Virus record (IMG/VR): IMGVR_UViG_3300020474_000136
Coordinates: 1 to 22,033 of that record
Source of the DNA: a virus
Length of the DNA: 22,033 nucleotides
Direction: 5' to 3' (one strand)
In this document: positions 26 to 9,638 of the stretch, one piece after another
How the letters are laid out: each line of letters begins with the position of its first letter
Position numbering within the stretch: the first letter of the stretch is position 1
The notes under the pieces: model-generated
Seen by the model: the letters and a program-made list of their open reading frames with translations, nothing else
Database searches by the model: none
Told to the model about the DNA's origin: nothing
Translations under genes and position numbers: made by a program

Positions 26-83
26 ATTATAGAGGTTAGGATAGTTGAATGGGGCAACTATGTGCCACTTTCTATACTGTCAT
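26..83 (-). promoter_or_regulatory. Promoter module A: palindrome plus -10 box
   Basis: On the minus strand an imperfect palindrome (ATGACAGT-ATAGAA-AGTGGCAC, 83 to 62) is followed after 30 nt by TATAAT (31-26) and then AATAGTATAAGCAACAAAC. This is the same arrangement as eight other sites in the window. It should drive a minus-strand gene that starts beyond the left edge. The palindrome lies inside the last codons of the 58-240 gene. No good -35 box is seen. The module is seen directly; activity is inferred. Confidence 0.6.
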
Positions 84-240
84 ACACTCTTACCGATAAC
101 TCTGCATCTTGTGTTAGGGTTATCCCTGCCCGATCAAGTGCTTCCCATATCTTGTTAGAAATATGGTTATGCTCATCTTCTGGTATTACTTCCCATAGGT
201 TAATGTAACCATCAAGTTCTATAAGTTGTTTGTAGTTCAT
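58..240 (-). CDS. Small acidic protein of unknown function (60 aa)
   Basis: This is a 60-residue acidic protein that I do not recognise. It has no membrane segment, cysteine pair or known motif. It is the last gene of the small operon driven by promoter module B. Its ATG (238-240) overlaps the end of the 237-419 gene (stop at 237-239), so translation is probably coupled. Its final codons run through the palindrome of promoter module A, so the C-terminal residues DSIESGT are partly dictated by that DNA site. Small unknown genes of this kind are common in T4-like marine phages, where many act early on host functions; that role is not shown here. Confidence 0.7.
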   Translation of the reverse strand: MNYKQLIELDGYINLWEVIPEDEHNHISNKIWEALDRAGITLTQDAELSVRVYDSIESGT

Positions 241-419
241 TGCATTAAGTCCTCGAATCGTTTTGTTGCATCTGCTTCGATCTCTGGTAAGATACCGAAT
301 TGATGATTCTGCTCTATCGTAGTAAGTTGCTCGTATGTAAGATTATTCTTTTTTCGATAATCTTCCCATGCTTCATCATAGCAAGTTTCGAGTAAAGACT
401 CGTGATGTAAAACTGACAT
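237..419 (-). CDS. Small conserved-type phage protein, HHESLLE family (60 aa)
   Basis: The protein starts MSVLHHESLLETCYDEA and is 60 residues long. The open frame continues upstream to 524, but the start at 419 is preferred. It follows a strong ribosome binding site (AGGAGGAG) and forms a TAATG junction with the stop of the 48-aa gene before it. The frame upstream of 419 is occupied by that other gene. The acidic, helical HHES...LT.EQL pattern resembles small hypothetical proteins I associate with cyanomyoviruses (recollection, not checked). Function unknown. It lies second in a three-gene operon with the neighbours at 419-565 and 58-240. Confidence 0.75.
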   Translation of the reverse strand: MSVLHHESLLETCYDEAWEDYRKKNNLTYEQLTTIEQNHQFGILPEIEADATKRFEDLMQ

Positions 420-565
420 TAGAATAAATCTCCTCCTGTTTGCATATAATCTACTAGAGAATTGAATTTCTTTTGATGTTTTGGATTTATACCTAGTTCT
501 CTGAAGTAGGTAATCATGACCCAAAGGACTTCCATTTGGTCATTTGTAAAATCATACTTGTTCAT
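419..565 (-). CDS. 48-aa protein of unknown function, first gene after promoter module B
   Basis: This short frame begins MNKYDFTNDQMEVLWVM and ends MQTGGDLF. It has a good ribosome binding site (AGAGGA, 6 nt before the ATG) and lies directly behind the promoter at 589-594. Its stop TAA shares a base with the ATG of the next gene (TAATG), and its last codons (GGAGGA) serve as that gene's ribosome binding site. This pattern of mutual fit is strong evidence for translation despite the small size. No motif or function is recognised. Confidence 0.75.
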   Translation of the reverse strand: MNKYDFTNDQMEVLWVMITYFRELGINPKHQKKFNSLVDYMQTGGDLF

Positions 566-588
566 AAATCCTCTTTGTTTATACTACT

Positions 589-645
589 ATTATAGTCCAT
601 AATAGAGTGAATGGTCAAATGATGTGCCACTAATGTAACTGTCAC
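589..645 (-). promoter_or_regulatory. Promoter module B: palindrome plus -10 box
   Basis: The palindrome GTGACAGT-TACATT-AGTGGCAC (645-624) overlaps the TGA stop of the 642-860 gene. After 29 nt comes TATAAT (594-589), then AGTAGTATAAACAAAGAGG and the ATG at 565. This copy also has a possible -35 box (TTGACC, 18-nt spacer), making it the best sigma70 match of the set. Confidence 0.7.
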
Positions 646-860
646 ACCCAATCGGGTGAATTAAGTTTTATCTGCTTAAATGGTTTATTGAGTCTCTTAT
701 CAATTCTTGCAAGTTCATCAACCGCACTAAAAAGATCTAGATGTGCAACATCAGGTTCTTCATCATTAAATGCTAAATCTTCTTTGATCTCGTCAGGTAA
801 ATCCCTAACTGCATCATAAATTTCTTGAAATTGTCCTTTTGTTAGTTCAATTTTAATCAT
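642..860 (-). CDS. Small acidic protein of unknown function (72 aa)
   Basis: This is a 72-residue acidic protein with probable helices and no recognised motif. Its ATG (858-860) abuts the stop of the preceding gene (861-863). The GGAGGA ribosome binding site is formed by the last codons of that gene, so the two are translationally linked. It is the last gene of the operon started by promoter module C. Its TGA stop is embedded in the palindrome of module B. The pairing with the upstream acidic protein suggests the two are made together; function is unknown. Confidence 0.75.
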   Translation of the reverse strand: MIKIELTKGQFQEIYDAVRDLPDEIKEDLAFNDEEPDVAHLDLFSAVDELARIDKRLNKPFKQIKLNSPDWV

Positions 861-1112
861 TTAAAAATCCTCCAAAACAAGTTCTTCAAATGCTTCCACA
901 CTTAATGCGGTATAATTATTTTTTTCGCATTCTTCTATACCTCTGTCCGATAACTCTTCAAAATCGAATTCGGGATATATTAATACCATTTCTACAGTAT
1001 TATACTTATCACATATTCCAAGATTATATTTTTCTTGATTATCGTCATAAAATTTTCTCTCATCATTTGTGAGTGAGTCAAAATTTCTATACATAATGTT
1101 TTTGAGTTTCAT
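861..1112 (-). CDS. Small acidic protein of unknown function (83 aa)
   Basis: This 83-residue, strongly acidic protein begins MKLKNIMYRNFDSLTNDERKF and has no recognised domain. The ATG at 1112 follows a GGAGGA ribosome binding site and shares a base with the stop of the 56-aa gene before it (TAATG). An overlapping plus-strand frame (890-1072) is its shadow. It belongs to the three-gene operon 1282 to 642. DNA-mimic or host-takeover roles are possible for small acidic phage proteins, but nothing here proves that. Confidence 0.75.
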   Translation of the reverse strand: MKLKNIMYRNFDSLTNDERKFYDDNQEKYNLGICDKYNTVEMVLIYPEFDFEELSDRGIEECEKNNYTALSVEAFEELVLEDF

Positions 1113-1282
1113 TAGAAAAATCCTCCATTAACTTCTGCATCTTGAATATTCTCGAACACTTCGACCTGTTTAGAAGTGAGTGGAAAATCCATATCCCTAA
1201 GAATATCATACAGTTTTACCATCTGGTAAATCTGATCTCCGTTCATGTGAACTGGCAATGTTTCGGGAATCATTTGTTGCAT
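1112..1282 (-). CDS. 56-aa protein of unknown function, first gene after promoter module C
   Basis: The frame begins MQQMIPETLPVHMNG and ends AEVNGGFF. It starts about 27 nt after the -10 box at 1309-1314. Its leader carries CAAAGAAAC, a stretch shared with other module leaders, and only a weak ribosome binding site; the internal Met13 is an alternative start. Its 3' end supplies the GGAGGA site and a TAATG junction for the next gene, as in the neighbouring operon. The last three residues GG-F-F echo the end of the 48-aa gene at 419-565, because both encode the downstream ribosome binding site. Function unknown. Confidence 0.65.
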   Translation of the reverse strand: MQQMIPETLPVHMNGDQIYQMVKLYDILRDMDFPLTSKQVEVFENIQDAEVNGGFF

Positions 1283-1308
1283 TTTTGTTTCTTTGTTTTC
1301 TTACTCTT

Positions 1309-1366
1309 ATTATAAGGTATATTATACCCTATGCGTGGAAGTGTGTGACACATAATTAACTGTCCA
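1309..1366 (-). promoter_or_regulatory. Promoter module C: palindrome plus -10 box
   Basis: The palindrome TGGACAGT-TAATTA-TGTGTCAC (1366-1345) overlaps the stop of the 53-aa gene. After 30 nt comes TATAAT (1314-1309), then AAGAGTAAGAAAACAAAG. A second TATAAT (1326-1321) lies within a 13-bp palindrome (GGTATATTATACC, 1316-1328). Confidence 0.65.
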
Positions 1367-1517
1367 TTAAGGGTTTCATAATATCGTCCATTATGATACC
1401 GTTAAAAGTCTGGAATATGCCAAACTCTTCATCTTCAAGTGATGTGCAAGTTTCCAATATTCCTTTTACTTCATTCAAGTGAATGAGTAACTTTTGTTTT
1501 TTAGTTAACTCACTCAT
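1356..1517 (-). CDS. 53-aa protein of unknown function
   Basis: The frame begins MSELTKKQKLLIHLNEV and ends MKPLMDS. Its ATG (1515-1517) shares a base with the stop of the upstream 1517-1774 gene (TAATG) and follows a GAGGA ribosome binding site 9 nt before. It is the last gene in the operon started by module D. Its final codons GAC AGT TAA form one arm of the palindrome of module C. It is probably a helical protein; no function is recognised. Confidence 0.7.
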   Translation of the reverse strand: MSELTKKQKLLIHLNEVKGILETCTSLEDEEFGIFQTFNGIIMDDIMKPLMDS

Positions 1518-1774
1518 TAATTTGTTTCCTCGAATGGTTCTCTTAATGGTAGTTTAAAATCAGATTTCATATAATCTTGAATCTCATCAACAACTTCGCC
1601 AAAAGAATCGTCCCAATAGTTTTGTGCTTCATCAAGAAATTCTGCATCAGGCATATTCTTGTATAGGTCATCTAGATCATCTGTTACATATTGAACTAGA
1701 TCTTTTGTTGACATATTGTCAACATATCTTTCAACTAAAAAGGATTTTAGTTCATTAATTAGTGCTTTGTCCAT
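1517..1774 (-). CDS. Acidic protein of unknown function (85 aa)
   Basis: This 85-residue protein is rich in Asp and Glu with repeated aromatic residues and has no recognised motif. The start at 1774 has an AGGA ribosome binding site that lies at the end of the gene before it (stop at 1779-1781), with a 4-nt gap. The stop overlaps the start of the 53-aa gene. It is the middle gene of the operon 2033 to 1356. High acidity and small size are shared with its neighbours. Function unknown. Confidence 0.75.
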   Translation of the reverse strand: MDKALINELKSFLVERYVDNMSTKDLVQYVTDDLDDLYKNMPDAEFLDEAQNYWDDSFGEVVDEIQDYMKSDFKLPLREPFEETN

Positions 1775-1778
1775 TGGT

Positions 1779-2033
1779 TTAAAATCCTAGTTTTTGTGCT
1801 GTTTGCTCTGTTGCTCTTCTTTGAATAACAAAATCTCTTACTCTCTCTCTGTCTAGTGAATCGCCATCGCCCCAAGTGATGTTACTATTTTCAACCGCAC
1901 ATAGGTCAAGATAGTTGAGAGTTGCAAGTGCTAACTCTTGTCTAGTTAATCCATCGATAGGATATAAAACGTCAGGGTGACTAGGTGAATAGAATGATTC
2001 GCAATAATCAAGGAATTCTTTAAAGTTGTGCAT
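1779..2033 (-). CDS. Protein of unknown function (84 aa), first gene of its operon
   Basis: The protein begins MHNFKEFLDYCESFY and has a C-terminal stretch rich in Arg and Gln (ERVRDFVIQRRATEQTAQ). It starts 27 nt after the -10 box of module D with leader CAAAGAAACATC and only a weak ribosome binding site, like the first gene of the next operon. It contains a Pro-rich segment (SPSHPDVLYPIDG) typical of small soluble phage proteins. No function is recognised. Confidence 0.7.
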   Translation of the reverse strand: MHNFKEFLDYCESFYSPSHPDVLYPIDGLTRQELALATLNYLDLCAVENSNITWGDGDSLDRERVRDFVIQRRATEQTAQKLGF

Positions 2034-2059
2034 GATGTTTCTTTGTTTGCTATACCTCT

Positions 2060-2117
2060 ATTATAGGGATAAATGGGTATGAATAGGGGAACTATGTGCC
2101 ACTAAACGTACTGTCAC
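2060..2117 (-). promoter_or_regulatory. Promoter module D: palindrome plus -10 box
   Basis: The palindrome GTGACAGT-ACGTTT-AGTGGCAC (2117-2096) contains the TGA stop of the 2114-2323 gene. After 30 nt comes TATAAT (2065-2060), then AGAGGTATAGCAAACAAAG. The segment CACATAGTT-CCCC after the palindrome is also shared with modules A and E. Confidence 0.7.
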
Positions 2118-2323
2118 ACCTCCCAAGTCCAATCGCCAAAAGTTGTGTTAGGAATAAAGATGAACTCTGTATCCTCGTCTTGAGGGTCTTTTCCATCTAC
2201 TACCCACTCCTCGCAAATTGATAGAGCATCTAGTTTTCTATCTTCGCTGACTCTGGTAGTCATCGTATTAAACAAATGTTTAGACATTTGAGTAATTGCA
2301 TTGTCACGTTCTTGTGTAGTCAT
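2114..2323 (-). CDS. Protein of unknown function (69 aa)
   Basis: This 69-residue acidic protein ends FGDWTWEV. The ATG at 2323 follows AGGAAA, which lies in the end of the preceding gene (stop at 2327-2329). It is the second gene of the two-gene operon from module E. The stop codon TGA is part of the module D palindrome. No recognised motif or function. Confidence 0.7.
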   Translation of the reverse strand: MTTQERDNAITQMSKHLFNTMTTRVSEDRKLDALSICEEWVVDGKDPQDEDTEFIFIPNTTFGDWTWEV

Positions 2324-2326
2324 GAT

Positions 2327-2515
2327 TTAGTTTTCCTGTGCAATAATATCCCACACTTCAATATAATTGTTTAACCAATTTTGTTGAAATGTAGTGAGGG
2401 CATCGATCTCAGCATATACATGAGCATATAGTAGATCATCAGCACTCATGAATGGTAGATTATGCTTATCACAAAAATCCTCCAATACATCTGATAAGAA
2501 ATCAAGTTTGTTCAT
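2327..2515 (-). CDS. Protein of unknown function (62 aa), start uncertain
   Basis: The open frame reaches 2581, but I prefer the Met at 2515 (MNKLDFLSDVLEDF), which follows AAGG with good spacing. The other two possible starts lie at 2561-2563, only 3 nt from the -10 box of module E, and at 2579-2581, inside the promoter. If transcription begins from a second -10 box (2585-2580), the start at 2563 would have a leader of about 10 nt without a ribosome binding site. The 62-aa product is acidic with a Trp-containing C-terminus. Function unknown. Confidence 0.65.
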   Translation of the reverse strand: MNKLDFLSDVLEDFCDKHNLPFMSADDLLYAHVYAEIDALTTFQQNWLNNYIEVWDIIAQEN

Positions 2516-2566
2516 GTAGTTACCTTGAATAAATTGATCGGGTGTGATGGTTGTTGTTTTCATACT

Positions 2567-2627
2567 ATTATAATAGAGCATTATAGAGGGGAATGGGGAA
2601 ATTATGTGACACTAGTTAAACTGTCAC
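2567..2627 (-). promoter_or_regulatory. Promoter module E: best palindrome plus -10 box
   Basis: This is the most perfect copy: the arms ATGTGACA and TGTCACAT are exact inverted repeats around a 10-nt centre. The core is 2627-2606. TATAAT follows at 2572-2567 (33-nt gap), with another TATAAT at 2585-2580 (20-nt gap). The region after the -10 reads AGTATGAAAACAACAACC. Confidence 0.7.
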
Positions 2628-2628
2628 A

Positions 2629-2838
2629 TCACTTGATGATTTTATATTCTCTGATGATAGGGTAATAACCAACCTCGTCAATAATTACCTCTATTAAATC
2701 CTTTTCATCTTTTGCTTCCCAAATACCAAGTGCTGAGTCATGAATTGCTCTCTCTTCATCAAAAGTTAACTGAAATTCTGGAATTCCATCGCCAACTTCA
2801 TTTAACTCAAATTCAACTTCTTTTACATGAAATTTCAT
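2629..2838 (-). CDS. Acidic protein of unknown function (69 aa)
   Basis: This 69-residue acidic protein begins MKFHVKEVEFELNEVGDG, which looks like beta strands, followed by a helical middle. Its ATG shares a base with the stop of the preceding gene (TAATG at 2836-2840) and follows AGGGAGC. It is the second gene of the operon from module F, and its stop lies 1 nt before the module E palindrome. Function unknown. Confidence 0.75.
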   Translation of the reverse strand: MKFHVKEVEFELNEVGDGIPEFQLTFDEERAIHDSALGIWEAKDEKDLIEVIIDEVGYYPIIREYKIIK

Positions 2839-3272
2839 TATGCTCCCTGATACTTGTTTACAACTTCCTCTAAGTCTATTAGAGTTCTATTTTTTTCTGG
2901 GTAGTAGTCATCTGTATTGTATGCAAACCACTCTCCCCTATCAAAAACATAACCAAACTCTGCACCACATTTATCGCAATGATCGAAAAATTCTGTGATT
3001 GAGTTTGCTGTCTTAGGTTTCTCATCGTCTCCACCATAATATTCTGGTTGGGGGTCACGCTTGACAAATGTTTGCTTATCAAAATCATATACGTTATCAG
3101 AATAGCAAGATGACATATTGCCACCTTCAATAAGTTTTTCAACTTTATCCTGACTATTATACTGTTCTAATAGTGTTAAACCCAACCACTCAGGATAACC
3201 GTCCCAATGATGATAAACTGAAACAAAATTGTCATCTGACCTTTTAATTGCGATTCTTGCATTTGTTGACAT
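2838..3272 (-). CDS. Conserved-type phage protein with YHHWDGYP motif (144 aa)
   Basis: The protein begins MSTNARIAIKRSDDNFVSVYHHWDGYPEWLG. The combination of an N-terminal beta strand and a (C/H)HWDGYP motif (residues 20-27) recalls a family of small phage proteins of unknown function (recollection, not searched). A CDKCG pair near residues 98-102 could contribute to a metal site, but no second CxxC pair is present. The ATG at 3272 follows AAGGG at very short spacing, about 27 nt after the -10 box of module F. It is the first of two genes in its operon. The 2879-3142 frame on the same strand is a shadow. Confidence 0.75.
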   Translation of the reverse strand: MSTNARIAIKRSDDNFVSVYHHWDGYPEWLGLTLLEQYNSQDKVEKLIEGGNMSSCYSDNVYDFDKQTFVKRDPQPEYYGGDDEKPKTANSITEFFDHCDKCGAEFGYVFDRGEWFAYNTDDYYPEKNRTLIDLEEVVNKYQGA

Positions 3273-3298
3273 AACCCTTAATTTGTTTGTATGAATAT

Positions 3299-3356
3299 AC
3301 TATAGGTGACTATGAGGTGATATGCAAGCAATAGTGGACAGTACGTTAACTGTCAC
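3299..3356 (-). promoter_or_regulatory. Promoter module F: palindrome plus -10 box
   Basis: The palindrome GTGACAGT-TAACGT-ACTGTCCA (3356-3335) has a perfect core GACAGT-N6-ACTGTC. It lies just after the TAG stop of the methyltransferase gene. TATAGT (3304-3299) follows after 30 nt, then ATATTCATACAAACAAATT. Confidence 0.65.
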
Positions 3357-3357
3357 A

Positions 3358-4299
3358 CTAAAACAAATCAGTAAGCGATGTATTTGGTAATCTAGAATCT
3401 ATCAGGGATTTATATTCTTCATGTAGTTCACACCCAATATAATGCCTATCTAATTGTTTAGATACCATTGCTGTTGTGCCACTACCTATGAATGGGTCGA
3501 GAATTAAATCCCCTTTTTTGCTCCCTGCCAGTATGCAAGGTTCAATTAAGTCAGGGGGAAATACTGCAAAGTGAGTTCCCTTATATGGTTTATTAGTTAC
3601 TGACCAAACAGATCTTTTATTTTTTGTTGGGTAACTTTTAGTAAGTCCAGAATGAGGTTGTAATCCAGTTCCTTTATTATGATACTTTCCTTTAGTTCTA
3701 TCTCTAGTTCCCCAGTCTTTTGCGGGTTCTTTAATTGCTTCATTGTCATAATAATATTTCTTATTCTTAGAGAATAGGAAAATATATTCATGAGATTTAG
3801 TGCATCTATCTTTAACACTTTCTGGCATTGGATTAGGTTTATGCCAAATAATATCTTGCCTAAGATACCACCCATCTTTGCGTAATGCAAACGCTAATAA
3901 CCAAGGTATTCCAATTAAATCTTTCTCTTTGAGTCCATCTAATTTGTTACCTCGTTTATTACATTTATCAGGTAAATCTTGTTTAGTTTTAGATACTGTT
4001 TGTTTAGGATATGATTGACCTTTTCCTGGTCTATAGTTATAATAACTATCCCCTATGTTTAACCATAGAGTTCCATCATCTGCTAAGACATTCTTAACTT
4101 CTCTGAATACTTTTACAAGTTCTTCAATATATTCTTCGGGTGTTTGTTCTTGTCCTATTTGTGATGACTCCCCACCATAATCCCTTAGTCCATAATAAGG
4201 GGGCGAGGTTACACACATCTGGACTCTCTCATGTATAGTAGGAATTGTATTTCTACAATCCCCATATAATATTGTATCTTTTTGAGGTCTTAATTTCAT
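3358..4299 (-). CDS. Site-specific DNA methyltransferase, SPPY type (313 aa)
   Basis: This is an S-adenosylmethionine-dependent DNA amino-methyltransferase. The catalytic motif TSPPYY is at residues 31-36 and the SAM-binding motif LDPFIGSGTT at 267-276. This is the permuted order of the beta-class enzymes, with a central region (about 85-235) probably holding the target recognition part. The SPPY form of motif IV is more typical of N4-cytosine than N6-adenine enzymes, but the base cannot be decided from sequence alone. The frame can start at a TTG at 4305; the ATG at 4299 is chosen because it overlaps the helicase stop (TAATG). There is no clear ribosome binding site, so coupling is likely. 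No adjacent endonuclease is seen, so protection of phage DNA or regulation is more likely than a complete restriction system. Confidence 0.9.
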   Translation of the reverse strand: MKLRPQKDTILYGDCRNTIPTIHERVQMCVTSPPYYGLRDYGGESSQIGQEQTPEEYIEELVKVFREVKNVLADDGTLWLNIGDSYYNYRPGKGQSYPKQTVSKTKQDLPDKCNKRGNKLDGLKEKDLIGIPWLLAFALRKDGWYLRQDIIWHKPNPMPESVKDRCTKSHEYIFLFSKNKKYYYDNEAIKEPAKDWGTRDRTKGKYHNKGTGLQPHSGLTKSYPTKNKRSVWSVTNKPYKGTHFAVFPPDLIEPCILAGSKKGDLILDPFIGSGTTAMVSKQLDRHYIGCELHEEYKSLIDSRLPNTSLTDLF

Positions 4300-5546
4300 T
4301 AGCAATAAGCGATAGGGGGAACACCATCGATGAAAATTTGATTGACTACATGCTGTAATCTTTTTCCAATAGCATCGCCACGTTTGTATCCAGTTGGAAC
4401 ACTTACTTGTCCAAACTGTTTTTTGTATAAGTGAAATGCACCTGCAGGAATAAGACCATTAGCAACTGCTTTTCTGTCATCAGTATGAACTCTAATTACT
4501 CTACCTATTGTTTGTGCCATTTCAATAATTGGTAAATTCCTGAGTAAAACAGTATGAGTTAATCCTGGAACATTGATACCTTCAGATAGTATTGAATAGT
4601 GGAAAATAACAAATCTTTTGTTATCGTCCTGACCCCACTTTGTGAGGGTGTCGAAAAACTCTTCTCTACCAACCTTTACACCATTGATGATAGCACCAAA
4701 CTTTGATGTAATGTGCATAAAGTCATATCCATTATCCTTGAAATACTCAAGAATAGTAGTATGTCCGAGCATATTACCCAATACTCTTGAACTAGGTGCA
4801 GCAACTAGGATTTTGTTGTTCTGGTTGTCATCAAATGTATTGATAATATCTCTGAGGTTATCAGCATCAATTTCATGTGCATTATACTTATCTCTTTGTG
4901 TAGTGTTACGAGTCTCGAAAGGAACAACTTTAGGGGGAACAATCGAACCACTAGCAACTAATTCCTGTGCAGGAACATTCTCCAAGACACCACCGTATAT
5001 ATTTGTGTTGTTCATGCCTCTGTCAGTAGATACACCACGACCTATGCGAGGTGTTGCTGTAAAAAAGAAACTTCTCTTTGCATACTGGACTATCTGAGAT
5101 AGAGCAATATTAAAATGCTTACCACAACCATTGTGTGCTTCATCAAAGTAAATAGTATCAACTTCTACGTCAACTGCATTAACAACTTTCTGTAGTGAGT
5201 GATATGTGGTAAATATCAAAATGTTTTTTGTGCTGTTGTTTACCCATGTATTTAACTCGAACTGATTAGTTGTGCTAAAATGATGAGTCTCTCCTGAGTG
5301 AACATGAGCAACATCAACGTCAGTAATGAACTCTAGGAACTCTGCACTCAACTGGTTAGCAAGTAAGATACGAGGGGCGACTACAACTGTAGTCTGTGCA
5401 ACTGGTAACTTGAATCTCTTGATAGCGTCAGCAATCATGATATATGTTTTACCACCACCAGTAGGCACGATGACCTGACCCTTGTCATTCTCTTGCATAG
5501 CGTCAAATGCTCTTTTCTGATGTGGACGTAAATTCATAATAACCAT
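4299..5546 (-). CDS. Superfamily II DNA/RNA helicase, DEAH type (415 aa)
   Basis: This is an ATP-dependent SF2 helicase. Visible motifs are the Q-motif-like LRPHQ (6-10), Walker A PTGGGKT (28-34), Walker B DEAH (135-138), motif III TATPR (163-167) and motif VI QTIGRVIR (345-352). It resembles the ResIII/UvsW-like helicases of T4-type phages, which act in recombination and replication, but it lacks a recognisable extra N-terminal domain, so I do not assign uvsW. A second ATG at 5537 (MNLRPHQ) could be the real start; neither has a ribosome binding site. It is first in the operon from module G, coupled to the methyltransferase. Confidence 0.85.
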   Translation of the reverse strand: MVIMNLRPHQKRAFDAMQENDKGQVIVPTGGGKTYIMIADAIKRFKLPVAQTTVVVAPRILLANQLSAEFLEFITDVDVAHVHSGETHHFSTTNQFELNTWVNNSTKNILIFTTYHSLQKVVNAVDVEVDTIYFDEAHNGCGKHFNIALSQIVQYAKRSFFFTATPRIGRGVSTDRGMNNTNIYGGVLENVPAQELVASGSIVPPKVVPFETRNTTQRDKYNAHEIDADNLRDIINTFDDNQNNKILVAAPSSRVLGNMLGHTTILEYFKDNGYDFMHITSKFGAIINGVKVGREEFFDTLTKWGQDDNKRFVIFHYSILSEGINVPGLTHTVLLRNLPIIEMAQTIGRVIRVHTDDRKAVANGLIPAGAFHLYKKQFGQVSVPTGYKRGDAIGKRLQHVVNQIFIDGVPPIAYC

Positions 5547-5558
5547 TTCAATACTCTT

Positions 5559-5615
5559 ATTATAGCATTAAAAAACCCCTCTGTCGAGGGGTTGTGACAC
5601 TATCCTAACTGGTCT
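5559..5615 (-). promoter_or_regulatory. Promoter module G: palindrome, nested terminator and -10 box
   Basis: The degenerate palindrome AGACCAGT-TAGGAT-AGTGTCAC (5615-5594) starts in the stop codon of the 5614-6747 gene. After 29 nt comes TATAAT (5564-5559), then AAGAGTATTG. In this copy the gap holds a complete intrinsic terminator, yet the spacing is kept. Confidence 0.65.
5570..5593 (-). terminator. Intrinsic terminator for the 5614-6747 transcript
   Basis: On the minus strand a perfect 8-bp stem (AACCCCTC with GAGGGGTT) with loop GACA is followed by T residues (TTTTTT counting the last two of the stem). It lies 20 nt after the stop of the 5614-6747 gene and just before the -10 box of the next operon. 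It would end read-through from the upstream operon before the helicase promoter starts. Confidence 0.85.
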
Positions 5616-6747
5616 ATTCTTCCTCGTCTTCGGGGAATAACTCTATTGGTAATGTAGCATATTCAACGTGGGGTGTAGTCATACCATGTGCCACCTTCCA
5701 AAGAAGTTCCCACTCCTCTAAGTATGCTTTCCAGTTAACACCTCTCATGCTACCATCTTTACTAAGATACTTGCCTTCAATAAATCTATCAATACACAAT
5801 AGTGTAAATGATTTCATATTGTTAGAGGGGTAACTTCCGTTCATCGCTGAAGTCTGAACATACCTTGACGTACCTGCTTTGAGTTGTTGCCACTCTCTCA
5901 AGAATACATTTAAAGGATTAAATCTATCTTCACGTCCATTTGAGGGGTCAACTACCACTTCACAATTAGAGACTCTAAACATTAAATCTTTTAGTTTCTC
6001 TAGTGCTTCTGGTTCTTCCTTATACTTCATATAAGAAACAAGATATGCCCAAGTAAATGGGTTATAGTGTGGTAGTGCTGTGCTTTTGAAACTACCAAAT
6101 TCAGCATCAAGATATATCTTGCGAACCCACAAAATAGCATCTTCAATATCACAAACCCACATCTTGATGTTAACAGTATTTGTTTTCATCTTGACGTTAT
6201 ACTTGTTAGAAAAACATAGTAAAGCTGCGTGTTGTATTGGTTCAACTTTACGCAACTTACCATCTTTAATTACAATCTGTCTCTCTCCGAATACAGCACG
6301 AAAAGCACCATCTACCCGATCAGATGCAATTTCTGCATCATCTGGATTATCGTGCATTTCATATTCTCTGTATATGGATTTAATGTTATCGTGTTCCTTA
6401 TAACTCACACGCACTTTTGATGGTTGCCAATCATCAGTATCTTCTGACCACCAATGTGCGTCTCTAGTGTGTCCGTTAGTTTTAAATTTACTCCCTGCTT
6501 TATATGTTTTCTTCGTCTCTGGGTCGTAACAATCTTTTGTTAATATTGCCCCATCAACTTCTAAGTGTGCTGATTCTAGTGTAGAAAACTTATTTCTGTG
6601 CTTAGGTTTTCTTGCTCGTTCTTCGTGGTCTCTTTGTATTGGGCAAACTTCCCAATCGTCATGCCACTCATCTATTGAAATGATTTTCTGTAAATACAGT
6701 AAATCGTCAACGTCCACACGTTGCTTACGTCTTTGGTTTCTATTCAT
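5614..6747 (-). CDS. ParB-like protein of unknown role (377 aa)
   Basis: The N-terminal part (about 35-100) has the layout of a ParB/sulfiredoxin-like fold: an IQRD...R segment, then SAHLEVDGAILT and the motif TNGHTR (90-95), which corresponds to the DGxHR/GHRR box of ParB-like nucleases and partition proteins. The rest has no recognised motif and ends in an acidic tail (PEDEEE). ParB-like phage proteins can be DNA-binding, nucleases or ATPases of other kinds, so no activity is assigned. The start at 6747 has no ribosome binding site; an in-frame stop lies 18 codons upstream with no other usual start. It follows the methyltransferase after 76 nt and ends at an intrinsic terminator. Confidence 0.75.
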   Translation of the reverse strand: MNRNQRRKQRVDVDDLLYLQKIISIDEWHDDWEVCPIQRDHEERARKPKHRNKFSTLESAHLEVDGAILTKDCYDPETKKTYKAGSKFKTNGHTRDAHWWSEDTDDWQPSKVRVSYKEHDNIKSIYREYEMHDNPDDAEIASDRVDGAFRAVFGERQIVIKDGKLRKVEPIQHAALLCFSNKYNVKMKTNTVNIKMWVCDIEDAILWVRKIYLDAEFGSFKSTALPHYNPFTWAYLVSYMKYKEEPEALEKLKDLMFRVSNCEVVVDPSNGREDRFNPLNVFLREWQQLKAGTSRYVQTSAMNGSYPSNNMKSFTLLCIDRFIEGKYLSKDGSMRGVNWKAYLEEWELLWKVAHGMTTPHVEYATLPIELFPEDEEE

Positions 6748-6765
6748 TTTTTTTAACTGTAATGC

Positions 6766-6800
6766 CCTAATTAGGCGGTAAATATCAATCGTAGGATTGA
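6766..6800 (-). promoter_or_regulatory. Two inverted repeats in the leader of the ParB-like gene
   Basis: The gap between the two genes (6748-6823) contains a perfect stem TCAATC-GTAG-GATTGA (6785-6800, plus strand) and a 10-bp palindrome CCTAATTAGG (6766-6775). No T-run follows, so they are not a clear terminator; an operator or translational control site is possible. A possible -10 (TATGAT) is seen near the end of the previous gene, but no convincing promoter. Confidence 0.35.
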
Positions 6801-6823
6801 CTTAAGTATGTAGTCATATTCTA

Positions 6824-7342
6824 TCATAAAAGATCAGGGGAATAAGAAAACTTAATATTTCCTTCATAATCTCGTTGTGTATGAACAGCAGCTAGTTGAA
6901 AACCTAGTTGTGGCCAAGGTTTTGTAGGTGTGGGAACATTATATATTTCTTTGATTGCAAAGTTGTGTTCTCTCATATCTCTTATTCTACGTTTAGTAGT
7001 ATAATGATTGATCGTTGTTAAATATACAATATTATCTGCCACTTCCATGCCATGCTCTAGAAATTGTTGCATCATAGACCAAGGCGGATTAGTAATAATC
7101 CAATCAACTTTCTTCTGATATAATAAAAAGTCTCTTCCTTCTCCTAGTTCACACCAATCTTTAGTGCATAGAGAATCATGTAGTGTAGGATAGTTGTCAT
7201 AAAATGCTCCTGTTCCTCTACTAGGGTCAAGTATTTTACCAACAGGATTAAAGTGTTTAATGATCTCCTTAGCAAGATACTCTGGGGTCATTACTATATC
7301 CTTATCAGGTGTATTTTTTGGGGGGCAAAATGCTCTTGTCAT
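6824..7342 (-). CDS. Small DNA adenine-type methyltransferase (172 aa)
   Basis: The protein has a SAM-binding motif LDPSRGTGAF (38-47) and a catalytic motif NPPW (85-88), preceded by a TPEYLAKEII segment (19-28) like motif X. This order (X, I, IV) is that of N6-adenine or related amino-methyltransferases. At 172 residues it lacks room for a large target recognition domain, unlike cellular restriction-modification enzymes of 300 or more residues. The ATG overlaps the stop of the endonuclease-like gene (ATGA, 7339-7342), so the two are co-translated. It may protect phage DNA from that protein, or be a degenerate or host-regulating methylase. Confidence 0.8.
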   Translation of the reverse strand: MTRAFCPPKNTPDKDIVMTPEYLAKEIIKHFNPVGKILDPSRGTGAFYDNYPTLHDSLCTKDWCELGEGRDFLLYQKKVDWIITNPPWSMMQQFLEHGMEVADNIVYLTTINHYTTKRRIRDMREHNFAIKEIYNVPTPTKPWPQLGFQLAAVHTQRDYEGNIKFSYSPDLL

Positions 7343-7944
7343 TTATTAAACGTACGTTTTTTAGATTCTATGATTAAGTTTAAATCTTTCTTTTCGTATT
7401 CTACACCACTTGCAAGTAGTTCGTCAAGTTTTAGTGAGCATTGAACTCTTCTCTGTTTCTTACTATCTACTTTTGGATTAATAGAATATAATGCTCTATT
7501 ACATGATGCACTTTCTTGTAAACTATCTCTAACAATTTTAGAATCGTCTCTTGCTTTTCCTCCCTCTGCAATACTCTTTACAAAATTTACAAATAATTCT
7601 ACTTTTTGATAATCCATGTCTCCCCATAGAGTTAGATAATCATTTGGTTGTATAAAGAACTCATACTGAGTATGAAATATTTTTTGATCTCCAACCTGAT
7701 TATAGCACCCAACAATTAATCTGTAATCGTTATGTCTCATCATTCTGAGAATATCAGAACAGCAAATAGTATTGTTGCCAGTAGTTTTAATACTAGCATC
7801 ATACTCTACTTTAAGTCCTTTTGATAAATCAAATGATGAAGTATAACCATTCTTCTTTAGACCATCATATTCTTTTTTTGATAGACCAGTTCTCTCACGA
7901 GTTACAATGTCTTCAAATTTATTTCCGTGTGCTTGAACTTCCAT
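7339..7944 (-). CDS. Restriction-endonuclease-like protein (201 aa)
   Basis: The sequence resembles small type II restriction endonucleases: E11 in a first helix, SSFDL (36-40), then VEYDASIKTTGNNTICCSD (46-64), which fits a PD-(D/E)xK-type core with D39 or D49 and K53, and a C-terminal KVDSKKQRRVQCSL (158-171) that I associate with such enzymes. Recognition is by pattern memory, so the fold is likely but not proven. It is directly followed by, and overlaps, a methyltransferase gene, the usual arrangement of a restriction-modification pair. In a lytic phage it could cut host DNA or that of competing phages. No ribosome binding site precedes the ATG; a long structured leader does. Confidence 0.65.
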   Translation of the reverse strand: MEVQAHGNKFEDIVTRERTGLSKKEYDGLKKNGYTSSFDLSKGLKVEYDASIKTTGNNTICCSDILRMMRHNDYRLIVGCYNQVGDQKIFHTQYEFFIQPNDYLTLWGDMDYQKVELFVNFVKSIAEGGKARDDSKIVRDSLQESASCNRALYSINPKVDSKKQRRVQCSLKLDELLASGVEYEKKDLNLIIESKKRTFNK

Positions 7945-8180
7945 TTTAAAAAATAGTGATGGGTCTTACATGTTCTCGGTTGAACTAGATGCTCCAACGC
8001 AATGTTCGGTAGAGTGTGGCAATGCCCAGTGATGGGTCGAAACAAAACTCAACTGCTTAAGTTCGATTTAAATGCGTATTCATTACTGGTCAAGAGGTGC
8101 TTCACTTTTCAAAGAAAGTACTAACTCAGTTATGGTGTCCGCAACCTTGAAAGTCTTAGGTTGGTTTGTTTCGACATTCT
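7945..8180 (-). ncRNA. Candidate structured leader or small RNA
   Basis: The 262 nt between the two genes hold no standard gene. Transcription from the -10 box at 8187-8182 should start near 8175. Exactly there begins GTCGAAACAAA, whose perfect complement TTTGTTTCGAC lies at 8046-8036. The 11-bp stem closes a domain of about 140 nt with internal hairpins (AACCT/AGGTT; ACTTTC/GAAAAGT with a bulge). Downstream, GACCCATCACT occurs twice (8038-8028 and 7965-7955), around small hairpins (GGC-ATT-GCC; GTTC-AACCGA-GAAC). It is not a recognisable tRNA or a riboswitch I know. Functions as 5' leader control or free RNA are both possible. Confidence 0.45.
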
Positions 8181-8181
8181 T

Positions 8182-8239
8182 AATATAAACGATTTTGCAA
8201 GTAATGTCAATAGGGTGTGGACACTTGTTTATCTGTCAC
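8182..8239 (-). promoter_or_regulatory. Promoter module H: palindrome plus -10 box
   Basis: The palindrome GTGACAGA-TAAACA-AGTGTCCA (8239-8218) lies wholly inside the last codons of the 8207-8713 gene. After 30 nt comes TATATT (8187-8182), then AAGAATGTCGAAACAAACC, similar to the other initial regions. It should drive the structured leader and the endonuclease-like operon. Confidence 0.55.
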
Positions 8240-8713
8240 ATGAATATTACCTGAGACTATTACTCTGTCTGTAGATGACATATTGTTGTCAACAGCGTGT
8301 AATGCCCATGAGGGAAATACAATAAAGTCGCATTGCTTTTGATTCTCTGGATATATCTTCTTATCTCCAATAAGAAAATGGAATGATGGTTCGGGGGTCT
8401 TTAAAAAATGAACCCATGACACTAATTCTGTTCCTAAGAAATGATCGTGGTATGAATGTCCATTGCTTTCTGGTTCATATACTTGTAACCAAATATTTTG
8501 TGTAAATTCAGTAGTCTTTAACGGTAACTCTTTTGTTACTGTCATTGCTATCTGTCTATAGTAGTCATTGAGAGTTGAAAGATAGTCGGGTTGCCTAAAA
8601 GATGTATAGTGTTTCTCTTGTTCACTATACATTTCTTTTCTGGTTTTTATATCAGACCATAATGGTTTAATTAAACTCTCATCATAAAAGATATTAGCAC
8701 TCCAGACTATCAT
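8207..8713 (-). CDS. 2OG-Fe(II) oxygenase-like (double-stranded beta-helix) protein (168 aa)
   Basis: The C-terminal half has the layout of 2-oxoglutarate/Fe(II) oxygenases of the type common in marine T4-like phages: metal ligands H89 and H91 in YHDHF, strands ELVSWVHFLK, then IVFPSWALHAV with the distal H139, and R150 as possible 2OG ligand. The first 70 residues are helical. The substrate is unknown. Its ATG overlaps the stop of the 57-aa gene upstream (ATGA-like). It ends the operon of module I and carries the module H palindrome in its end. A +1 frame opens at its stop (see findings). Confidence 0.75.
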   Translation of the reverse strand: MIVWSANIFYDESLIKPLWSDIKTRKEMYSEQEKHYTSFRQPDYLSTLNDYYRQIAMTVTKELPLKTTEFTQNIWLQVYEPESNGHSYHDHFLGTELVSWVHFLKTPEPSFHFLIGDKKIYPENQKQCDFIVFPSWALHAVDNNMSSTDRVIVSGNIHVTDKQVSTPY

Positions 8714-8883
8714 ATTTCATACCCAAATCCACCCTTCTGTGCAATGATAGTTGATCTTTTCCACTCTTTGAGTTGTCTAAGTTTCTTCTTGAGTTTATAA
8801 AACTCCTCATCATTGTATAGAAATGGGTCTTCCTCGCCTTTCTTGATAGCGTGTTTCAATAGTTTAATTTCTTTACGAAACAT
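8710..8883 (-). CDS. 57-aa basic protein of unknown function
   Basis: The frame begins MFRKEIKLLKHAIKKGEEDP and ends AQKGGFGYEI; the middle is a lysine-rich helix (YKLKKKLRQLKEWKR) that could form a coiled coil. The ATG shares a base with the stop of the upstream gene (TAATG at 8881-8885), and its stop overlaps the start of the oxygenase-like gene. The KGFG-type ending resembles short cyanophage proteins I have seen, unnamed and without function. It is too short for standard ORF cut-offs, but the double coupling supports it. Confidence 0.75.
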   Translation of the reverse strand: MFRKEIKLLKHAIKKGEEDPFLYNDEEFYKLKKKLRQLKEWKRSTIIAQKGGFGYEI

Positions 8884-9074
8884 TATGTGTATAACTCCTG
8901 TAGGTGTAGTTCATCAACAATAGTCTGTATCTCTTTCATCTTACTTAGATAAAGAGACTCATCAATAATTTTATCTCCATAGTAACGCTTCTGTAAATTA
9001 GAAACGTATGCTAGTAGAGCATCTTTCAATAATTCCTTTTGCATTTTAGTTAATATAGCAGATTTAAGATACAT
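8883..9074 (-). CDS. Helical protein of unknown function (63 aa)
   Basis: This 63-residue protein is almost entirely predicted helix, with regular leucines (KELLKDALLAYVSNLQ), possibly a small coiled coil. The ATG at 9074 directly follows the stop of the preceding gene, whose last codons give a GGAG ribosome binding site; Met11 is an alternative but has no better site. It lies in the operon 9558 to 8207. Function unknown. Confidence 0.75.
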   Translation of the reverse strand: MYLKSAILTKMQKELLKDALLAYVSNLQKRYYGDKIIDESLYLSKMKEIQTIVDELHLQELYT

Positions 9075-9353
9075 CTATCTCCATTTAGAGTGTGGTGCGG
9101 TTTCTTCCAACTTCTCACTCTCTATTATATCTGACTCATCAGGGTTTTGCACGTTTTGTGTTGATTTCAATGTTGAAAGATACTTCAAGACGTGTTCTCT
9201 AATCTCCATGAGTTCATTAAAACAATCTTGATTATAGGCACAACCACGCAAGTCAGCATCAGGTTTCATAACTGATTCTGTGAATAGAGATAATGCTCTA
9301 TCATATTTTATAGCAGGTGTTTCATTCAGACCTACTGAACCTTGATCTTTCAT
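9075..9353 (-). CDS. Protein of unknown function (92 aa)
   Basis: This 92-residue protein has a helical centre and an acidic, probably disordered C-terminal third (NPDESDIIESEKLEETAPH). The ATG at 9353 follows AAGGAC at good spacing, although this means it overlaps the end of the upstream gene by 32 nt. Two cysteines (GCAYNQDCF) lie six residues apart. No function is recognised; it is part of the operon from module I. Confidence 0.7.
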   Translation of the reverse strand: MKDQGSVGLNETPAIKYDRALSLFTESVMKPDADLRGCAYNQDCFNELMEIREHVLKYLSTLKSTQNVQNPDESDIIESEKLEETAPHSKWR

Positions 9354-9558
9354 TTTTAAGTCCTTTGTAGTATGTATTAGATAATGGAAGTAAATCAGAC
9401 TTAAGATCCACTTCTGTTCTTAAATCTTCAAAACAATAACCAACTCCATGTAAGAAGTCAGCAGTTTTTTCTACAACTTCATCAAGGTATGTAGCTTCAA
9501 ATTCTTTTGATGATACGGTATCGTCCTCATCTGTGCAGATGAGTGTAAAGTGTGGCAT
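9322..9558 (-). CDS. Small protein of unknown function, MPHFTLICTDEDD type (78 aa)
   Basis: The protein begins MPHFTLICTDEDDTVSSKEF and has a beta-alpha pattern followed by a region with FLHGVGYCF. The opening resembles small cyanophage hypothetical proteins (recollection only). It is the first gene after promoter module I, 23 nt beyond the -10 box, with leader CACACAAACCA and no ribosome binding site. Its 3' end overlaps the next gene by 32 nt in another frame. Function unknown. Confidence 0.75.
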   Translation of the reverse strand: MPHFTLICTDEDDTVSSKEFEATYLDEVVEKTADFLHGVGYCFEDLRTEVDLKSDLLPLSNTYYKGLKNERSRFSRSE

Positions 9559-9581
9559 TGGTTTGTGTGATATACCTTTCT

Positions 9582-9638
9582 AGTATAGCATACAATTTTG
9601 AGAATGGCGAGCCTATAGACAGTTTATTTTACTGGCAC
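9582..9638 (-). promoter_or_regulatory. Promoter module I: degenerate palindrome plus -10 box
   Basis: The palindrome GTGCCAGT-N7-ACTGTCTA (9638-9616) has the stop TAA of the 9624-10235 gene in its centre. After 28 nt comes TATACT (9587-9582), then AGAAAGGTATATCACACAAACC. It is the weakest copy but occupies the expected place between two gene clusters. Confidence 0.5.

Follow-up and report, generated by a model that had tools for sequence, protein, structure and literature searches.

Repeated palindromic promoter sites of a T4-like cyanophage early-type region match a host small RNA control site and are probable operators for the host regulator PlmA

Overview of the locus

The stretch analysed here, positions 1 to 22,033 of the viral record IMGVR_UViG_3300020474_000136 (the window, 22,033 nt), carries nine copies of an imperfect palindrome, referred to as the dyad, each followed by a promoter -10 box. 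By Megablast, the window belongs to a T4-like cyanophage and groups with S-SSM5, P-RSM4 and S-TIM4. The left 9.6 kb contains short minus-strand genes together with a DNA methylase and a helicase, and a 2OG-Fe(II) oxygenase, a carbamoyltransferase and fibre-type genes are found to the right of it. A sequence-only reading of this DNA had placed nine palindromes on the minus strand of the left part, and all nine are present at those coordinates. Dyad 1 (ATGACAGT-N6-AGTGGCAC) is located at 62-83, with a TATAAT -10 box at 26-31 and its next gene beyond the window edge. Dyads 2 (624-645), 3 (1345-1366) and 4 (2096-2117) each contain the stop codon of the upstream gene and have TATAAT as their -10 box at 589-594, 1309-1314 and 2060-2065, respectively; a homologous site of dyad 4 is found in S-TIM4 (L029). 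Dyad 5 (2606-2627) is followed by TATTAT at 2570-2575 or, alternatively, TATAAT at 2567-2572, and dyad 6 (3335-3356) by TATAGT at 3299-3304. Dyad 7 (5594-5615) again contains the upstream stop codon and has TATAAT at 5559-5564, dyad 8 (8218-8239) is followed by a -35 box (TTGACA), a 17 nt spacer and TATATT at 8182-8187, and dyad 9 (9616-9638) has its -10 box, TATACT, at 9582-9587.

The pattern GTGACAGT-N6-AGTGKCAC, allowing up to three mismatches, matches the window 12 times when both strands of each palindrome are counted, compared with 0.25 matches expected from shuffled sequences. A matrix combining dyad and -10 box, trained on other viral contigs, placed eight of the nine sites far above threshold at gaps of 29-30 nt, and its reversed control gave no matches. 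The nine sites had been read as alike. This holds for eight strong copies, and dyad 9 differs by one additional spacer base and a poorer distal arm; as it is conserved in S-TIM4 and S-SSM5, it is counted as a variant. The gap of 33 nt given for dyad 5 shortens to 30 nt if TATTAT is taken as its -10 box. Most copies in the window do lack a -35 box, the exceptions being TTGACA at site 8218, TCGACA at site 5594 and the -35-like TTGACC at site 624. The sites lie between gene clusters, as had also been noted: the upstream stop codon falls inside the palindrome in five of nine cases and the other four upstream genes stop no more than about 11 nt away from it. Past the site, the next same-strand gene starts after 24-99 nt, except at site 8218 (273 nt) and at site 62-83, where it is off the window. 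Scanning the window beyond position 9,638 revealed no more sites with a usable -10 box.

The methylase gene (N6_N4_Mtase, PF01555; 3358-4305, minus strand) terminates just ahead of dyad 6, and the first gene downstream of the dyad 7 promoter encodes a superfamily 2 helicase (ResIII/DEAD; 4299-5546, minus strand). A leader of about 240 nt (7945-8187) separates the dyad 8 promoter from the gene at 7339-7944 and may represent an undescribed leader RNA or an unannotated small gene. At gathering score, Rfam yielded no motif in the window, this leader included.

Architecture of the dyad promoters

An exact-pattern scan of IMG/VR returned at least 120 contigs, and among those listed TATAAT-like hexamers cluster 30-31 nt downstream of the motif. 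These loci served as the starting point for an iterated matrix, resulting in a wider symmetric dyad of 24 bp, TGTGMCASTT-N4-AASTGKCACA. Recounting and orientation analysis with the symmetric matrix gave 862 distinct dyads in viral contigs and 530 oriented copies. Following the 862 dyads, -10 boxes occur 396 times at a gap of 30 nt and 222 times at a gap of 31 nt, against about 9 per gap elsewhere, and the arm nearer the promoter is slightly better conserved. With the -10 box set at -12 to -7, the centre of the dyad falls at about -53; TTG, the start of a -35 box, is found 7 nt past the dyad in 82 of the 530 oriented copies. From the window alone, the promoters had been proposed to form a class of the activator type that is distinct from the T4 MotA system, with a lack of palindrome enrichment upstream of -10 boxes in related genomes named as evidence that would count against it. 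Such enrichment was found, and the class, including its fixed -10 spacing, is common to related phages.

Two groups of loci deviate from this architecture. When read in the opposite orientation (e.g. GTGACACTTGAAGAACTGTCAC), the dyads of five loci (L007, L037, L096, L101, L106) lead into GC-rich hairpin-like sequence and have no -10 box at the usual gap; they are possibly end-of-operon variants. In a second group of contigs (L002, L031, L033, L107, L113), GTGACAGTTTATCAAGTGTCAC recurs, also without a -10 box at the usual gap, and is probably an unrelated repeat.

Nature of the palindrome

At the two variable arm pairs of the dyad, standard base pairs were observed 246 times versus 244.5 expected and 133 times versus 206.5 expected, and G.G and A.G mismatches between the arms are frequent. 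As the arms show no RNA-type covariation, the palindrome is best read as a protein-binding DNA dyad. An RNA hairpin or terminator was rejected for the same lack of covariation, and the RNA 3'-end signal that the sequence-only reading had kept as an option is thereby abandoned. It is highly improbable that the palindrome acts at the RNA level by ending the transcript of the upstream operon, as a 3'-end hairpin or a terminator, similar to the composite promoter-terminator cassettes of T4-like phages. Its overlap with the upstream stop codon at five of nine sites would fit such a role, as would the separate terminator hairpin found between dyad and -10 box at one of the nine window sites (dyad 7; AACCCCTC-GACA-GAGGGGTT plus a T run, 5574-5593, minus strand) and in 63 of 530 other copies. 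However, compensatory changes between the arms are absent and G.G opposition is favoured, no T run directly follows the dyad, and a terminator has no need for a fixed -10 spacing. The hairpins located in some of the gaps do mean that some modules join end and start signals. Of the three alternative explanations weighed in this study, an RNA-end role is the only one directly contradicted by our data.

The cassettes in question, promoter/stem-loop (PeSL) cassettes of T4-like phages, were reportedly described by Arbiol in 2010 and Comeau in 2014. They have in common with the dyad modules that early-type promoters are repeated between gene clusters, and a minority of the modules here also carries a terminator; they differ in that the conserved palindrome seen here is a DNA site and not a terminator stem-loop. 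PeSL cassettes are also mentioned in PMC4503421.

Distribution in phages and bacterial genomes

At up to three mismatches, the dyad is present in eight of eight Kyanoviridae cyanophages (Syn9, S-SSM5, P-TIM40, S-PM2, P-SSM2, P-SSM4, S-CRM01 and S-TIM4), with 4-19 copies per genome. The same threshold gave no dyad in T4, Ma-LMM01, P-SSP7 or P-SS2 and a single one in the SAR11 phage HTVC008M, and the combination of dyad and -10 box is found neither in T4 nor in HTVC008M. Among the phages tested, the dyad is confined to T4-like phages of cyanobacteria. Sites with both dyad and -10 box are mainly located in early-type regions, forming clusters at 43-53 kb in Syn9, 45-55 kb in P-TIM40, 42-48 kb in S-SSM5, 2-23 kb in S-PM2 and 121-155 kb in S-CRM01, the last of which has an additional minus-strand group at about 79-124 kb.

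The strict motif together with a -10 box was also sought in 84,980 genomes of bacteria and archaea, where it is repeated in no contigs other than cyanophage-like ones assigned to Nonlabens and Flavobacteriales. A host-wide regulon of strong sites was considered and rejected: outside those contigs only isolated single matches were found in the same genomes, and a strict dyad plus -35 pattern gave three matches in 400 picocyanobacterial genomes. The cyanophage promoters in question are located on Nonlabens contig NZ_RMVE01000006.1 (L129, L144) and in a Flavobacteriales metagenome-assembled genome (NHFO01000061/63; L131, L137, L143). The Nonlabens contig (188,235 bp) has a set of dyad copies identical to that of P-TIM40 (188,632 bp) and is probably phage contamination. 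Picocyanobacterial genomes further contain rare dyads of phage strength with TTG 7 nt downstream, away from the small RNA (sRNA) gene yfr2 discussed below (L254, L257, L260 and L263, in genomes G118, G137 and G034). The gene past the L254 site encodes an AAA/STAND-type NTPase, and defence genes might here be under the control of the same regulator. In several genomes of one picocyanobacterial family (L253, L256, L262), related dyads have conserved flanking sequence, AAAAGGTAGCACCC in two cases, and look like one repeated element.

Host counterpart of the phage dyad

A looser motif scan of cyanobacterial genomes gave 55 matches versus about 15 in the control. Three of these, from three different genomes, are located directly upstream of Cyano-1 RNA genes, a family also known as Yfr2 that was found in 57 of 61 picocyanobacterial genomes. 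When stretches of about 3 kb at Yfr2 loci were scored with the phage matrix, the top match at most of the loci examined had the same constant position upstream of the sRNA, and 16 of 21 such host matches exceed the 99% level of control windows. Alignment of 26 yfr2 promoters resulted in the consensus TGTGACAGTT-N4-TAGTGnCAC, the sole well-conserved block upstream of the -10 box; 30-31 nt is the commonest distance from the dyad to a -10-like box, as in the phages. Dyad consensus and -10 spacing are thus common to host yfr2 promoters and phage sites; the host sites often have one good arm, whereas phages carry many copies ahead of early-type operons. Because it is the only well-conserved block in this position, the host dyad is most likely the published element CGRE1.

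According to PMC6778093, which refers to Lambrecht 2018, the GntR regulator PMM1637 binds yfr2 promoters carrying CGRE1 and is credited with Yfr2 induction. The same source describes PMM1637 as common to all cyanobacteria and the CGRE1 motif as absent from the MED4 genome outside yfr2 promoters. In other cyanobacteria, PMM1637 is known as PlmA, a partner of PII-PipX (PMC6243067) and an essential protein in S. elongatus (PMC5083789). The YtrA subfamily, a near relative of PlmA, fits a long palindrome with GT/AC far from its centre (PMC4494728). The earlier statement that no described factor is known for the motif therefore has to be changed, as the same element is found in host yfr2 promoters where PMM1637/PlmA reportedly binds (PMC6778093). 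One clear GntR gene was identified in 27 of 31 picocyanobacterial genomes. No GntR gene was found in the eight cyanophages or the window, and a search of 50,697 phage records for full-length PlmA gave none.

Proposed function and alternative explanations

We hypothesize, and consider it probable, that early promoters of T4-like cyanophages have these nine sites as operators, which would be strong phage copies of the CGRE1-type site of the host, with host PlmA acting on them. In both sequence and spacing, the dyad matches the control site of a host sRNA gene, an indication that a host regulator is borrowed by the virus to switch on its first genes. PlmA binding, activation rather than repression and early timing are what we infer beyond this match. 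In the phage promoters, the dyad is centred some 53 bp ahead of the predicted start and precedes a -10 box of the host sigma-70 type, often without a good -35 box. Directly after injection and ahead of any phage protein, host PlmA dimers would bind the dyads and recruit host polymerase to the weak promoters, and the early region would be switched on operon by operon.

Several points weigh against this proposal. Scattered dyads occur at a few positions outside early-type regions, and the sites in the hosts do not reach the strength of those in phages. The phage matrix was the seed for the host alignment, a bias limited by the position controls, and the host dyad would be equated with CGRE1 through its conservation and not through the published CGRE1 sequence. 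In addition, PlmA is scarce: S. elongatus cells contain about 400 chains each (PMC6243067).

Compared with host genomes, phages carry the motif far more often and in stronger form, and a novel binding protein could hide among the early-region genes, which are mostly of unknown function. Both observations would fit activation through the dyad by a phage-encoded DNA-binding protein, either injected with the virion or among the first made, with the yfr2 likeness being secondary, for example mimicry of PlmA specificity. We regard this as unlikely, given that dyad and -10 gap are identical in host yfr2 promoters, that the phages are without a GntR-domain gene and that immediate-early use requires a pre-existing protein. 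Many GntR regulators are repressors, and the strong dyad close to the promoter could accordingly be a negative operator with a role in timing, at which PlmA or another factor represses until phage conditions release it. This is quite unlikely: most copies have no good -35 box, which is typical of activator-dependent promoters, the fixed position at about -53 is upstream of the polymerase site, and PMM1637 is described as a mediator of Yfr2 induction (PMC6778093).

The proposed early operators can be compared with known regulatory systems. T4 middle promoters dependent on MotA/AsiA are likewise activator-assisted, with a sigma-70 -10 box and a poor -35 box; however, the MotA box is located near -30 and the dyad with -10 box is absent from T4, while motA and asiA are absent from cyanophages (PMC2984593). 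MotA-type promoters, in which the box would lie about 13 nt ahead of the -10 box, were rejected as an explanation, TTGCTT being found only near site 3335, 21 nt from its -10 box. A CRP/NtcA-type site was rejected by inspection on account of a misfit in half-site spacing. A novel early-gene regulatory element, conserved in T4-like cyanophages, was reportedly found in Syn9 and P-TIM40 by Doron et al. in 2016 (ISME J 10:1437). The phage group is shared and both phages have clustered dyads with -10 boxes; the dyad is likely the same element. We found no paper linking the phage element to Yfr2, CGRE1 or PlmA; Lambrecht 2018, outside the literature covered, may do so. We therefore place the nine sites in a known element class, and the proposed identification of the host factor is possibly the new part.

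Biological implications

A 2010 review left early and middle transcriptional control in T4-like cyanophages unresolved, reporting sigma-70-like motifs for early genes of S-PM2 and Syn9 and the absence of MotA, AsiA and the RNA polymerase-modifying enzymes of T4 (PMC2984593). A host-encoded early activator would, if true, answer the early part of this question. As a broader and tentative proposal, which we rate as plausible though slightly short of an even chance, T4-like cyanophages in general may start infection by hijacking PlmA: whereas the host employs the site chiefly for a single sRNA, the phages would carry it in many copies of consensus strength. Their early transcription would in that case be governed by the nitrogen and redox state of the host and compete with Yfr2 for PlmA. 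PlmA itself is connected with the PII-PipX nitrogen signal and with thioredoxin, and a host-encoded activator would link the start of infection to nitrogen and light signals of the host. Direct tests would have a named protein and a defined site to work with, and the dyad matrix would serve to find early operons in uncultured cyanophage contigs.

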